Assembly: GCF_913777625.1 (NCBI RefSeq)
Contig: NZ_CAJYTI010000011.1
Coordinates: 62,001-126,000 of the forward strand
DNA length: 64,000 nt
From: an uncultured Sphingomonas sp.
GTDB taxonomy: Bacteria; Pseudomonadota; Alphaproteobacteria; Sphingomonadales; Sphingomonadaceae
Direction of reading: 5' to 3'
This document shows positions 32,394-40,461 of this stretch, in pieces (within the stretch, counting starts at the first letter, position 1; each line of letters starts with the position of its first letter). A program made the translations under genes and the position numbers. Below the pieces are notes generated by a model. It searched no databases, was not told the DNA's origin, and saw only the letters and a program-made list of their open reading frames with translations.

Positions 32394-33287
32394 TCAGCCC
32401 AGCATCGCCTGCAGCGCGGGCGAGATTTGCTCGACGACGCGCTCCCCGTCGCGCGTGACCATGTGCACGGCGAGTCCCTGCCGCTCCGCCAGCGTCATGC
32501 CCGCAGGCCCGAGCACGGTGAGCGCCGTCGCCCAGGCATCGGCCCGCATCGCCTCGCGGTGCAGCACGGAAACGGAGACGACCTGGTTGTCGATCGGCCA
32601 GCCGGTGCGCGGGTCGATCGTGTGGGCATAGCGGCGCCCGCCACGTTCGAAGAAGCGGCGGTAATCGCCCGAGGTCGCGACCGACAGGCCATGCAGCGCG
32701 ACCCGCAATGGCGCCAGGGTGATGCCCGGCACCGCCTCCAGCTCGACCCACCAGGGCTGGCCATCGGGCTTGATGCCTTCGCCGCGGAGCTCGCCGCCGA
32801 TCTCGATCAGGAAATCCTCGATGCCGAGCGAGACCAGCCGCTCGGCCACCGCGTCGACGGCATGGCCCTTGGCGATGCCCGAAAGGTCGATCTGCACGGC
32901 CTCGCGCCGGCGGATGCGGCGGGCGTCCGCATCGAATTCGAGATGGCGCACGCCGGACATGTTGCGCGCCTCGCCGATCGCATAGGCGCCCGGCAGATCG
33001 TCGCGCGGGCCGGCGGGGCCGAAGCCCCACAGATCGGCGAGCACGCCGGCCGCAGGATCGAACGCGCCGTCGCTCAGGCGGTGCACGTCGAATGCCGCGG
33101 CCAGCACCCGCACCGCCTCGGGCGACAGTGGGTGCCAATGGCCGAGCATCCCGCGGTTGAACCGGCCGATCCGCGATCCGCTCTCCCAATGGCTGAACTC
33201 GGCGATCATCCGCGCGAGCACAGCCTCGACGGTCTCGCGAATGTCCTCGGGAGGATCAACGACGACCAGGCGCCAAGTGGTGCCCAT
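32394..33287 (-). CDS. apbE: FAD:protein FMN transferase (ApbE); true start may lie upstream near 33380
   Basis: MGTTWRLVVVD; SHWESGSRIGRFNRG; IDLSGIAKGHAVDAVAERLVSLGIEDFLIEIGGELRGEG; HTIDPRTGWPID. Confidence 0.93.
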   Translation of the reverse strand: MGTTWRLVVVDPPEDIRETVEAVLARMIAEFSHWESGSRIGRFNRGMLGHWHPLSPEAVRVLAAAFDVHRLSDGAFDPAAGVLADLWGFGPAGPRDDLPGAYAIGEARNMSGVRHLEFDADARRIRRREAVQIDLSGIAKGHAVDAVAERLVSLGIEDFLIEIGGELRGEGIKPDGQPWWVELEAVPGITLAPLRVALHGLSVATSGDYRRFFERGGRRYAHTIDPRTGWPIDNQVVSVSVLHREAMRADAWATALTVLGPAGMTLAERQGLAVHMVTRDGERVVEQISPALQAMLG

Positions 33288-33385
33288 GGTCGCCCCGCCG
33301 AAGGTGGCGACGGGCGCAGCCGAGCGGCGCCGGTGGAATGCCGCCGGCGACAGGCTCTCGGGTACAGCGATACGCGGTTCTACAA

Positions 33386-34270
33386 TCAGGGGGCCAGTAC
33401 CTCCAGCGTGGTCGTGTAGCTCACACGACGGCCGGAGGAAACGCCTGCCATGCCCTGCGGGCCACCCATAGCGGGACGCGCGGCGGCGCCCTGCGCCTGC
33501 GGACGCGGGCCTTCGCCCTCGGGCTGCGGGGCGGTGGGGGTGACGTTGATCCAGTACATGCCGGCTTCCGGCCACTTGATCGTCACCTTGCCCTGGGCAT
33601 CGGTGCGCAGGTCCAGCTGCTTCTGCGCCGCACGGTAACGGCCGTTGCCGAGAATGGTGGTGACGTAGAGGCCCGCTGCGGGCTTGCCGTCCAGGAGGAA
33701 CTGGAAGGTCGCCGGCTCATTCGAGACGAGATCGTTCGGATGCGTCACCGGCACCAGTTCGATGCCCTGGCCGGTCGGCTTGAACACGGTGTTGGTCGGC
33801 GCACCCTGGGTCACGAAGATCTCGTTGCGGGCCAGCATCTCGCTGGTCTGCACGTCGGTCGCACCGGCGGGGATCACGCTCGCCAGCTGCGCCTTGGTGG
33901 TGCCGCGCGGGATCATCTTGGTCTCGCCGTTCAGCGTGTAGCGGCCGAACACGCCCTGGTTCACCACCGCGATGCGATAGGTGCCCTGCTGGGTGAGGTG
34001 CACGTCGAAAGTGGCGCGGAACTGGCCGACATTGTGATGCTCGGCCTTGCCCTCGCTGCCGTCGGGCTGGGTAATCACGGGGAGCACGCCGAGCGGGCGG
34101 TGGTCGAAATAGAAGAGGTCGTTGGACACCGCAGCGTCGACCGTCACCCAGTTATCGGTGCCCGAGACGACCGTCGAGGACGGCAACAGCCACATGCGAT
34201 GGGCGATCGCGGCGGGAGCGGCGAGCGCCGCGACGGCGGCAACGGCGAACAGCGGCTTGCGGAACTGCAT
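33386..34270 (-). CDS. DUF4198-like periplasmic protein
   Basis: 294 aa; signal peptide ...AAPAAIA then HRMWLLPSSTVVSGTDNWVTVDAAVSNDLFYFDHRPL; FKPTGQGIELVPVTHPNDL. Confidence 0.82.
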   Translation of the reverse strand: MQFRKPLFAVAAVAALAAPAAIAHRMWLLPSSTVVSGTDNWVTVDAAVSNDLFYFDHRPLGVLPVITQPDGSEGKAEHHNVGQFRATFDVHLTQQGTYRIAVVNQGVFGRYTLNGETKMIPRGTTKAQLASVIPAGATDVQTSEMLARNEIFVTQGAPTNTVFKPTGQGIELVPVTHPNDLVSNEPATFQFLLDGKPAAGLYVTTILGNGRYRAAQKQLDLRTDAQGKVTIKWPEAGMYWINVTPTAPQPEGEGPRPQAQGAAARPAMGGPQGMAGVSSGRRVSYTTTLEVLAP

Positions 34271-34287
34271 GACTGGAAATCCCCCGA

Positions 34288-34812
34288 TTAGCGCTTGAGC
34301 GTGAACGAAACGGCGCCGAGCTCGCTCGTGCCCTTGGTGGTGGCGGTGGCGCTGCTGCCGTTCCAGCTGAACGGCAGGCGCACCAGATCCCGGCCGCCGA
34401 CTTCGCGCGCGGCTTCCACCACCAGCGTGTACTGGCCCGGTATCAGCGCGGGCATGCCGCCCTTGCCGGCGACGAGGCGCAGCTTCTGCACGCCCGGCGC
34501 GCGGGTGGCGCCGCTGATGCCGTCGGCCGGGAAGCTCATCGTCCGCCCCGAGGCGCGCCACCACTGGCGCACGTCGTGCAGCCACTTGGTGCCTTCTCCG
34601 CCGCGCTTGTCGACATCGTACCAGACCGAGAGCGTGCGGGGCGCCTGCCCTTCCTTCTCGAGCCAGACGGCGACATAGGGCTTGTGATATTCGGCCACGC
34701 GCATGCGCGGCAGTTCGATCGACAGATCCATGGTCTGGGCCGCCGCCGCGTTCGGCAGCAGCGCGCCGGCGCCGAGCGCGGCGGTGGTCAGTCCGGTCAG
34801 GCGAAACTGCAT
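34288..34812 (-). CDS. DUF2271-like periplasmic protein with an ApbE-type flavinylation motif
   Basis: 174 aa; signal peptide; VWLEKEGQAPRTLSVWYDVDKRGGEGTKWLHDVRQWWRASGR...DGISGATRAPGVQKLRL. Confidence 0.82.
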   Translation of the reverse strand: MQFRLTGLTTAALGAGALLPNAAAAQTMDLSIELPRMRVAEYHKPYVAVWLEKEGQAPRTLSVWYDVDKRGGEGTKWLHDVRQWWRASGRTMSFPADGISGATRAPGVQKLRLVAGKGGMPALIPGQYTLVVEAAREVGGRDLVRLPFSWNGSSATATTKGTSELGAVSFTLKR

Positions 34813-34821
34813 GAAACCCCC

Positions 34822-35463
34822 TTAATGGATGAGGAACAGCGCGATCAGCGCAGGAATGGCGAGGCCGGCCGCGACGATCGGCCAGGTGCTCTTGCGGTGC
34901 TTGGCGTGCATCCACAGCAGCACCAGTCCGGTGAGCGTGAAGACCAGGCAGGCAAAGGCGAACACGTCGATGAAGGTTTTCCACGTCGTGCCGGCGTTGC
35001 GGCCCTTGTGGAGATCGTTGAGATAGGCGATCCAGCCGCGCGAGCTGATTTCGCTGGTCACCTTGCCGGTGGCGCGATCGATCGCGATCCAGCCGTCGCC
35101 GCCCGGGCGCGGCTGGGCGAGATAGATCTCGTAGGGCGACCATTCGGCGACGCCCTCGGCCGACATCCTCAGGTTGGCGCGCAGCCAGCCCGCGACCGGG
35201 GCCGGCAGCGGCTGCTTGGCATCGGGCTTGTCGTCCGGCTTGACCAGCGGCAGCAGCGCCGGCGGCAGCTGGGCGGCGCGGTCGACCGTCTTCGCGCTGC
35301 CCTCGATGTCGGCAGCATGGTTGAGCGTGAAGCCGGTGATCGCGAACAGCAGCAGCCCGACCAGGCTGATCGCCGAACTCATCCAGTGCCAGGTATGGAG
35401 CTGCTTGAGCCAGAAGCTCTTGCGGCTGCGCTTGCGCGCGGCAGGCGGGGACGGGGCGTGCAT
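34822..35463 (-). CDS. PepSY-associated TM protein
   Basis: MHAPSPPAARKRSRKSFWLKQLHTWHWMSSAISLVGLLLFAITGFTLNHA; C-terminal TM pair with HAKHRK. Confidence 0.82.
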   Translation of the reverse strand: MHAPSPPAARKRSRKSFWLKQLHTWHWMSSAISLVGLLLFAITGFTLNHAADIEGSAKTVDRAAQLPPALLPLVKPDDKPDAKQPLPAPVAGWLRANLRMSAEGVAEWSPYEIYLAQPRPGGDGWIAIDRATGKVTSEISSRGWIAYLNDLHKGRNAGTTWKTFIDVFAFACLVFTLTGLVLLWMHAKHRKSTWPIVAAGLAIPALIALFLIH

Positions 35464-35673
35464 CAGGCTGGAACGATCTCGACTGCGGAAACGAAGCGCC
35501 GCGATAACGCGAACCATTCGCAATTACAACGGCCGAAAATGTAACAGGATGTCGCCGGTCGCACGGCGCGGCGGAGCCGGCGGAAACGCAGCGTTCGCGA
35601 TCCTATGCCCTGGTTTGTCTGGGCGGGAGCGGCGCCAGCGGCTATCCCCGTCGCAACAACACGGAGACCGACG

Positions 35674-37629: not shown

Positions 37630-40461
37630 TTAGAAACGGAATCGCACCCCGGCGCTGAAATACCGGCCCTCGTACCGCGTATCGATCGGGTAATATTGCG
37701 ACTCGTTGAAGTAGCGATAGTTGCTGAATGGCTGCGCGAGGATGTTGTTCACCTCCACGGTCAGCGTGATGTTCTCGACCGGCGTGTACGATCCCGAGAA
37801 ATCAAGCCGCGAGATCGGCCGCACCTGCTGGCCGGTATAGGCCGCATCGTTCGAGTTACGGCTGTAGAAGTCGACATAGGAGCTGCGATAATTGTACGAT
37901 ACACGCAGCGAAACCTTATCGCGCTCGTAAAAACCGCCGAGGTTGTACGTCCACTTCGACAGGCCGGTCAGCGGCACCATCGCGCGCGCCTCGCCCAGCG
38001 CCTTGGGCAGCTGGTTCTTGGCGTCGACATAGGTCAGGTTGGCCTGCGCGCCGAAGCCGCTCAGCCAGCCGGGCAGGAAGTCGAAGAAGCTCTGGGCCGA
38101 AACCTCGAAGCCCTTGATCTTGCCCGTACCTGCATTTTCCGGGCGGCTGACCTGGATCAGGCCGAAGGTGGGGTCGTTGACGTCGCGGGTGTAGCTGCTG
38201 ATGAAGCCCTTGAGATCCCGGTAGAATAGCGCACCGCTGACCGCGCCGTTCCTGCCGAAATAATATTCGATCGTGGCGTCGTAATTCTTCGAGGTCAGCG
38301 GCTTCAGGTCCGGGTTGCCGCCCGAGCCGAACGCGGCGTAGCGCGCATTGCTGCCGGTGCCGGTACCGAAATCGGTGTTGCGGCTGATCGTGAAGGCCGG
38401 ATTGAGATCGCCGAAGCTCGGCCGCGTGCGCGTCATGGTAAAGCCCAGCCGCGCCTGCAGCCCCTGCATCAGCTTGGCGCGGAGGCCGAAGCTGGGCAGC
38501 ACGTCGACATAGTTCTGCCGGTTGACGTTCGTGACCGAGGTGACGGTGTCGACCTTGGTCACCGGATCGGTCACCGTCACCTTCGACGTGCCGACATAGC
38601 GCCCATCGGTGTTGACGATGCGCACGCCGAACGAGCCGTCGATCGGGATGCCCACGTCGAAGGCATAGCTGCCCTGCGCATAGGCCGCGTAGCTCGATTC
38701 CTTCGAGTAGAAGCCGCCATAGGGATCCATCGGGATCGCCTGGGTGGCGAACTTCGCCAGCGCGTCCTTATACCCTTGGTCGTTCGGATTGGCCGCGACG
38801 ATCTTCTGCAGCGACGCATAGGAGAGCTGGCGCAGCGCCTCGGCATTGCTCTGAATGGCGTCGTAGGAAGGCATCAGCCAGTTGCGGAACGGCGGGCCGT
38901 CGCCGCGAAAGCCGTCCTGCACCTGCTCGAGATTGCCGGTCGGCAGGCTGGCGAGCGGGATGCTCAGCGTCGGCGTGTAGGCGTAGCGATTGCCCTGCCG
39001 CTTCTTCGCATCGCGATCGGTGGCGCGGAGGCCGAACTTGATCTTCGGCAGCCACTGGACATCGGTTTCCAGCGCGACGTCGCCCCGCCACTGGATGCCC
39101 GCGCCGGTGACGTAATATTCCTTCTGGTAGAAGCCGCGCCATACATAGTTGGCGGGGTTGGTCATGTCGTAATTGCCGAGGTCGAACCACGACGACTTGT
39201 TCTTCTCGAAGATCACGTTGACCGGCGGCGCCGCGGCGGTCTGGCCGTCGAGGCTCGACTCGTTGTTGCCATATTCCGAGAAGGTATAGGCAAAGTCGCT
39301 CGAGATCACCGCGCGCCCGGTCGTCCAGACGAAGCCGCCGGCGGCCTGGTAGGTATTGGTATAATCCCGCGTGGTCGAGCGGAAGGTCTCTGCCGGATAG
39401 CCGCCGGTCTTGCTGATGCTCACCAGCTTGTTCGGCTGGCCGTCGACCCGGACGATGTTGAACAGGTTCGGTGGAACCTCCACCCCCGCAGCGTTCTTCG
39501 GCGCGGCGCGGAGCAGCGACACGTCGAAGCTCTCGGTCGAACCCTGGTTGCGATAGGCCTGCCACAGCCCGTCGACATAGATTTCGAGATTGTGCGCCGG
39601 CTTCCACTGGAACGAGCCGTTGACCGACGGCCGCTCGCGCAGCCCGCGCGGATAGTAGAGGCCGACGCTGTACGGCAGGCGGAAGTCGGCAGCCTGGCCG
39701 GCCGGCAGCGTTGCCTTGCTGTTCGCCACCGGATCGACGCCGCCATTGGTGTAGCGGATCGCGTTGTTGAAATAGAAGCGGTTGTAGGCGACGTTGACCA
39801 GCGCCCCCATCTCGCCGATCGGCGTGTTCCAGCGATCGCTGATCAGCAGATTGCCGTTCGGGTTCGTCTTCTTCGACTGGTCGTTGTACGAGGCGCGGAT
39901 CGCGCCGGCGATCTCCAGCCCCTTGAAATCGAACGGGCGGCGCGAGCGCACATTGACCAGCCCGGCCAGGCCGGGCTCGATCAGTTCCGCCGTCGCCGAC
40001 TTGTATACCTCCAGCGCCGCCAGCGCGCCCGCGGGAAAGTCGTGCACCTGCACGGTGCGGTTCTCGGCAGTGAAGATCTCGCGCCCGTTGAACGAGGTGC
40101 CCACGTCCGGAAGGCCGCGGATGAGGATTCCCGAGGCTTCGTCGGCATAGCGATTGACCTGCACGCCCGGCAGCCGTGCGAGGCTCTCCGATGCGTTATT
40201 GTCTGGCAACTTTCCAATGTCCTCCGCGACGATCGCGTCGAGGATCGATTCCGAATTGCGCTTGAATTCGCGCGCGGAGGCAAGGCTGGCGCGAATGCCG
40301 GTAACCAGGATTTCTTCTTCCGCCGCCGCGCTAGGCGCCGACGCCGAGGTGCTATCCTGGCCAGAATCTCCGGGATTTGCGTTCGATTGTGCCCAAGCCG
40401 GCGACACGCTCGCCAGCGTGGCCGCGGCTACGCCCAACAACAGAACCTGCTTGTAAGACAC
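37630..40461 (-). CDS. TonB-dependent receptor
   Basis: 943 aa; signal peptide; EEILVTGIRASLASAREFKRNSESILDAIVAEDIGKLPDNNASESLARLPGVQVNR; C-terminal aromatic VRFRF. Confidence 0.96.
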   Translation of the reverse strand: MSYKQVLLLGVAAATLASVSPAWAQSNANPGDSGQDSTSASAPSAAAEEEILVTGIRASLASAREFKRNSESILDAIVAEDIGKLPDNNASESLARLPGVQVNRYADEASGILIRGLPDVGTSFNGREIFTAENRTVQVHDFPAGALAALEVYKSATAELIEPGLAGLVNVRSRRPFDFKGLEIAGAIRASYNDQSKKTNPNGNLLISDRWNTPIGEMGALVNVAYNRFYFNNAIRYTNGGVDPVANSKATLPAGQAADFRLPYSVGLYYPRGLRERPSVNGSFQWKPAHNLEIYVDGLWQAYRNQGSTESFDVSLLRAAPKNAAGVEVPPNLFNIVRVDGQPNKLVSISKTGGYPAETFRSTTRDYTNTYQAAGGFVWTTGRAVISSDFAYTFSEYGNNESSLDGQTAAAPPVNVIFEKNKSSWFDLGNYDMTNPANYVWRGFYQKEYYVTGAGIQWRGDVALETDVQWLPKIKFGLRATDRDAKKRQGNRYAYTPTLSIPLASLPTGNLEQVQDGFRGDGPPFRNWLMPSYDAIQSNAEALRQLSYASLQKIVAANPNDQGYKDALAKFATQAIPMDPYGGFYSKESSYAAYAQGSYAFDVGIPIDGSFGVRIVNTDGRYVGTSKVTVTDPVTKVDTVTSVTNVNRQNYVDVLPSFGLRAKLMQGLQARLGFTMTRTRPSFGDLNPAFTISRNTDFGTGTGSNARYAAFGSGGNPDLKPLTSKNYDATIEYYFGRNGAVSGALFYRDLKGFISSYTRDVNDPTFGLIQVSRPENAGTGKIKGFEVSAQSFFDFLPGWLSGFGAQANLTYVDAKNQLPKALGEARAMVPLTGLSKWTYNLGGFYERDKVSLRVSYNYRSSYVDFYSRNSNDAAYTGQQVRPISRLDFSGSYTPVENITLTVEVNNILAQPFSNYRYFNESQYYPIDTRYEGRYFSAGVRFRF

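Follow-up and report, generated by a model that had tools for sequence, protein, structure and literature searches.

Four genes packed on the minus strand of a Sphingomonas genome encode proteins with membrane, flavin and metal signatures, and the question raised by this locus is what such a set does together in the periplasm. The window referred to below is the whole 64-kb stretch of DNA that was analysed. The original prediction read the genes as a periplasmic flavin electron-transfer module, which was right and matches a published class, and gave periplasmic reduction of iron or copper as an example of its function. The operon is an established kind of system, present here as a Sphingomonadales variant, and iron acquisition is its most likely role.

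Layout of the operon and its known relatives

The operon order is PepSY_TM_like_2, DUF2271, DUF4198 and ApbE. All four domain assignments were well over the Pfam cut-offs, and together with the coordinates they confirmed four same-strand genes at 32394-35463 (Table 1). The gaps between them are short as predicted, with exact untranslated lengths of 9 nt (PepSY to DUF2271) and 17 nt (DUF2271 to DUF4198) in place of the 10 and 18 nt given originally, which are coordinate differences. The expected adjacency or overlap into apbE proved to be a 4-nt overlap with DUF4198. DUF2271, DUF4198 and ApbE each occur once in the genome. Just upstream of the operon, on the opposite strand, a pirin gene and an alpha/beta hydrolase gene are found, with a TonB receptor farther out. 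The closest relative found was S. azotifigens, with a PepSY identity of 92%.

Table 1. Features of the operon in the window (positions count from the first letter of the window).
Feature	Position	Strand	Evidence or detail
PepSY_TM_like_2 inner-membrane protein	34822..35463	-	PF16357, E 6.6e-74; 213 aa
DUF2271 exported flavin carrier, Sec-type signal peptide	34288..34812	-	PF10029, 1.1e-44; N-terminus comparison in relatives
Predicted flavinylation motif DGISGAT, FMN predicted on Thr103	34504..34524	-	Sequence
DUF4198 exported metal-protein-like beta-sandwich	33386..34270	-	PF10670, 1.9e-53
Codon of the predicted mature N-terminal His of DUF4198	34199-34201	-	Codon of His34 of the mature protein: 34100-34102
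apbE, FAD:protein FMN transferase, no signal peptide	32394..33389	-	PF02424, 1.7e-77
Apparent apbE start codon CTG	33387-33389	-	CTGA overlap with DUF4198 stop
Fur-type box ATTGCGAATGGTTCGCGTTA	35505..35524	-	Motif match; 41-60 bp before PepSY ATG

The identical gene set was named the PepSY-like flavinylation system by Méheust et al. 2021, who proposed iron reduction as its function (PMC8238504). The survey comprised 3220 clusters, 2833 with DUF2271 and 1500 with DUF4198, its ApbE or substrate genes were filtered by signal, and flavinylation of the A. ursilacus DUF2271 at the threonine of [S/T]GA[S/T] was proven by mutation. The Sphingomonas operon shares with this system the four families in one cluster, namely a protein of PF03929 or PF16357 in a flavinylation-associated cluster, a DUF2271 substrate and an apbE gene within the cluster, and also the proposed iron reduction. 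The DUF2271 flavinylation motif of the original prediction reads DGISGAT, which fits the published pattern and is conserved in relatives. An exported ApbE, which is usual for the class and not strictly defining, was not found here: the protein has no hydrophobic N-terminal segment. In contrast to the published system, the Sphingomonas operon comes without an NADPH-flavodoxin reductase, its ApbE is signal-less with an apparent CTG start, and the Sphingomonadales linkage to PiuC and a Fiu-like receptor is not described in the available part of that paper. For the absence of the reductase, the signal-less sole ApbE and the apbE CTG start we found no account in the literature as far as its text was available.

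A homologous operon in Caulobacter crescentus, CC_3059-3063 (CCNA_03155-03159), has PepSY, DUF2271, DUF4198 and ApbE in the same order, whereas its fifth gene, a flavoprotein reductase (seen in C. segnis), is missing in the Sphingomonas genome. Fur binds and represses the Caulobacter operon, which is strongly induced when iron is lacking (PMC3751524); mutants of this operon have a fitness defect in EDTA (PMC11870441). Because the system of Méheust et al. is published, and CC_3059-3063 is Fur-repressed and needed in EDTA, the class is already known. In Alteromonas, DUF4198 and DUF2271 genes lie beside iron-responsive receptors (PMC7190382). In the available literature the class is backed by bioinformatics, a single flavinylation test in vitro, and data on expression and fitness, for the most part from Caulobacter; no experiment on this Sphingomonas protein set was found there.

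Conservation was assessed in 80 named loci fetched by PepSY similarity, almost all of them alpha-, beta- or gammaproteobacterial, and the sample therefore describes this PepSY subfamily and not all DUF2271 clusters. The four genes are in order in 74 of the 75 relatives not cut by a contig end (including L105, entered as in order with a DUF2271 reading frame merely open upstream), so the order is not due to chance and the co-occurrence check proposed with the original prediction was passed. DUF2271 is present in 21 of 151 Sphingomonadales genomes, and most fetched loci keep the four-gene order. The sole exception (L108, Sphingomonas sp. IC081) has ApbE directly after PepSY, with neither DUF2271 nor DUF4198 detected between them. 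Another family of the order carries an ApbE-DUF2271 fusion (L036, L038, L041 and L042) with VTRPT or VSRPT in place of SGAT, and two of these loci have PepSY and a distant DUF4198 close by.

Fur-type box and linkage to iron genes

The Fur-type box ATTGCGAATGGTTCGCGTTA was the only match in the 64-kb window, with 0.04 expected by chance, and 4.17 Mb contained three matches with at most 3 mismatches, this one included (control 1). A similar palindrome precedes PepSY in most relatives, in the majority of cases around -80 to -110 relative to where the PepSY domain starts; it scored at least 12/15 in 61 of the 80. Both palindrome arms change together between lineages, as in GCGAATCGTTCGC and GAGAATGATTCTC. 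The box lies in the promoter, as expected for a member of the Fur regulon, and is a putative Fur-binding site; a promoter scan found nothing. Strong motif matches elsewhere in the genome were located upstream of the nuo operon (G000:C3:38444, L148), recognised by its nuoC and nuoD, and ahead of a sucC-type gene (G000:C14:1476, L147), which suggests iron control of central metabolism. Another strong match precedes a FauA/FhuE-like receptor and a large PepSY_TM gene. This row of box, receptor and large PepSY_TM protein (G000:C20:285605-289153, L146) is a candidate for a second siderophore reductase operon of this genome.

A PiuC/YbiX/CciO-type dioxygenase was found within the flanks (about 10 kb) in 44 of 80 relatives, a count inflated by relatedness, while two genes are estimated to fall within 10 kb by chance in roughly 0.5% of 4-Mb genomes. 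The dioxygenase (PRK05467) is often convergent with apbE at a distance of 3-30 bp, and in 29 relatives it has an adjacent same-strand receptor; at these loci, the receptors that were scanned are similar to Fiu or to the siderophore receptor class. A siderophore-type receptor profile detected TonB receptors in the flanks of 49 of the 80 relatives. A scan of the loci with the window's own receptor had missed the siderophore-type receptors, and its result of no receptor nearby does not stand. In this genome a Fiu-like TBDT and PiuC form a pair on another contig with their own Fur-like boxes, so the link here would be by shared control, not position. Both the CciT/CciO pair and the PepSY operon affect the fitness of Caulobacter in EDTA, and no mention of the two as neighbours in other genera was found in the literature as far as its text was available. 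PiuA and Fiu, relatives of this pair, import catecholate siderophores and cefiderocol (PMC12004947).

The receptor within the window (37630-40461) is of the TonB-Xanth-Caul type, has no comparable Fur box, and is probably unrelated to iron. The nearby TonB receptors sought with the original prediction thus exist as Fiu-like receptors linked in other genomes, whereas the window receptor is of a different type and is found near the operon only here and in S. azotifigens. As for the metal, iron is the best-supported role because of the Fur-type box and the linkage to PiuA/PiuC-like genes and Fiu-like receptors; no specific support was found for copper, the other metal suggested.

Flavin attachment, metal binding and electron transfer

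According to a recent review, export is the rule for ApbE, and the cytosolic forms known act on cytosolic targets (PMC12052999), so the pairing of a signal-less ApbE with an exported DUF2271 is unusual. In the window and in most relatives ApbE has a short polar start (e.g. MTVRIAIPPALSPAAF; MNRVLVP in Caulobacter segnis) followed by the catalytic core, and a clear signal-like hydrophobic segment was confined to Luteibacter, Allopusillimonas and a few other, weaker cases. By the same measure, which is one of simple hydrophobicity and not a trained predictor, the DUF2271 N-terminus was hydrophobic in 79 of 79. The role of maturase originally given to ApbE agrees with the presence of apbE in the cluster, but meets a topology problem, as the sole ApbE has no signal peptide and DUF2271 is exported. 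It could be that periplasmic flavinylation of DUF2271 does not take place here and that ApbE serves a cytosolic target, or that the operon is partly degenerate, which would also fit the loss of the reductase gene. We regard this as unlikely, as motif and order are kept, and this ApbE is well conserved in sequence and has no second copy in the genome. A tentative solution, itself rather doubtful, is that cytosolic ApbE flavinylates DUF2271 before export, the FMN-bearing precursor passing through Sec, and that in this branch another donor stands in for the NADPH-flavodoxin reductase. Tat export of a folded, flavinylated DUF2271 was considered and rejected, as the signal peptides have no clear Tat motif.

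In about 21 relatives and the window (a tally of 23 of 36 that includes the window and L090, whose arrangement differs), the stretch from the DUF4198 stop to the ApbE core contains no ATG, GTG or TTG. Where relatives have a spaced ATG, their initiator Met lines up with the CTG that overlaps the stop. Among 14 equal-length sequences, codon variability in the CTG stretch was 0.41 at the third position as compared to 0.20 and 0.18 at the first and second, and this twofold difference indicates that the stretch is translated in the ApbE frame. Judged from the sequence, apbE appears to start at CTG. A -1 frameshift producing an exported DUF4198-ApbE fusion was rejected, since most relatives have no slippery sequence ahead of CTGA and those lacking the overlap carry an ATG at the aligned position of the CTG.

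The DUF4198 protein had been taken for a secreted metal-associated protein, and its signal peptide and modelled fold agree with this. The signal peptide ends in AIA followed by H, which makes His the predicted first residue of the mature protein; this His1 is present in 45 of 48 relatives, as is His34. The AF2 model (pLDDT 88.7) is a beta-sandwich matched by Foldseek to the metal-binding proteins Zcp (5e-12) and Ni-DUF4198 9GCB (2e-7), and phmmer of the PDB gave a weak pointer to Zcp; no paper on the Zcp structures 9MHI-9MHO was found. Identity to both is 14-16%. The N-terminal His is common to IsDUF4198 (9GCB), in which His1 and His18 bind Ni, the preferred metal, with a Kd of 18 nM (PMC12537917). 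In contrast, residue 18 is Trp here and His34 is conserved instead as a candidate ligand, so any second ligand would differ from that of IsDUF4198 or be shifted. Three Sphingobium loci (L068, L069, L078) have AGAARPW or similar in place of AxAH and no N-terminal His, with the operon kept.

The nanomolar Ni binding of IsDUF4198 fits a module that handles Ni, Zn or Cu and not iron, in which the flavin arm would keep or free the metal and DUF4198 would be a periplasmic chaperone. Zcp, which gave the best fold match, has structures with Zn, Cu and Co, and a zur mutation likewise affects CC_3060 and CC_3061 (PMC4176598). However, the Fur-type box, the PiuC and Fiu-like linkage and the Fur control in Caulobacter make such a role improbable. 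Redox cycling by flavins is not expected for Ni, Zn or Co, and the redox arm would therefore be left unexplained.

The path through the inner-membrane PepSY agrees with the module, but the electron input of the relatives is missing here. In 26 of the 28 non-Sphingomonadales relatives whose sequence extends far enough, a membrane-anchored Flavodoxin_1 + NAD_binding_1 protein follows apbE, while an NADPH-flavodoxin reductase follows apbE in 0 of 40 Sphingomonadales loci and none was detected in this genome by profile search with a purpose-built alignment. PF00667 was dropped as a donor test, being uninformative: Caulobacter has no PF00667 either. Two Sphingomonadales genomes (G019, G026) keep an NADPH-flavodoxin reductase beside DUF2271 in variant clusters.

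The AF2 model of PepSY (pLDDT 87.9) has three TM helices at 9-48, 159-187 and 193-212. His residues near the TM ends were part of the original prediction, and in 49 relatives five of those named were retained: the second His of LHTWHW, those of NHA and NDLHKGR and the first of HAKHRK at 98-100%, and the first His of LHTWHW at 96%. No such conservation was seen for the second His of HAKHRK. Conserved His lie near the cytosolic (26, 186) and periplasmic (49, 152) helix ends, and these four fit two bis-His hemes in a putative two-heme conduit. The PepSY ferric reductases FoxB, HiuB and VciB have in common with this protein a PF03929 match, TM-end His and an iron context, whereas the Sphingomonas PepSY is a three-TM form with a flavin partner, and Foldseek gave no match of its model to FoxB or any heme protein. 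With PepSY or DUF2271, phmmer of the PDB gave chance matches only.

The electrons might instead serve periplasmic protection or repair, or feed another reductase, with the iron control reflecting heme and flavin cost or oxidative stress. In favour of this, protein repair is supplied by MsrQ-like relatives, and flavinylated systems as a whole have many acceptors (PMC8238504). Against it stand the consistent iron-gene neighbourhood and the EDTA-specific fitness in Caulobacter, which leave this reading only a slim chance. It is very improbable that PepSY is a siderophore permease which the other genes only assist, as read for larger PepSY-TM proteins beside Alteromonas iron receptors (PMC7190382), given its only three TM helices, the flavin carrier and transferase in the operon, and the finding in recent work that FoxB-type relatives are reductases (PMC12424826).

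Proposed mechanism and its meaning

We consider it probable that the operon is a Fur-controlled iron-uptake accessory which carries out periplasmic ferric reduction via PepSY, FMN-DUF2271 and DUF4198. PepSY would pass electrons across the inner membrane, probably by two hemes held by His26/His186 on the cytosolic side and His49/His152 on the periplasmic side. The electrons would move to covalent FMN on Thr103 of the exported DUF2271, attached by ApbE, and FMN-DUF2271 may then reduce periplasmic ferric iron, whether free, chelated or siderophore-bound. DUF4198 may bind metal by its N-terminal His and His34 and present or receive it, and Fe(II) would enter by FeoB, which is present in the genome. 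This iron-accessory reading is supported by the four-gene order, the constant-position Fur-type box, the PiuC linkage in 44/80, FeoB and the Caulobacter data. It draws as well on the domain assignments, on the other strong motif matches in this genome and the Fur-like boxes of its Fiu-like TBDT and PiuC pair, on the flavinylation of a DUF2271 (PMC8238504) and on the metal site of a DUF4198 relative (PMC12537917). The missing reductase, the signal-less ApbE, the PepSY without a Foldseek match, and the Ni preference and His18 ligand of the solved DUF4198 count against it.

The recurring PiuC/Fiu-like neighbourhood ties the PepSY module to the CciT/CciO pair. The Sphingomonadales branch also poses the questions of what feeds the PepSY conduit once the dedicated reductase is gone, and of how cofactor is supplied to a periplasmic flavoprotein when the transferase carries no export signal. 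If true, modification before export would be a flavinylation route unlike the usual periplasmic one.
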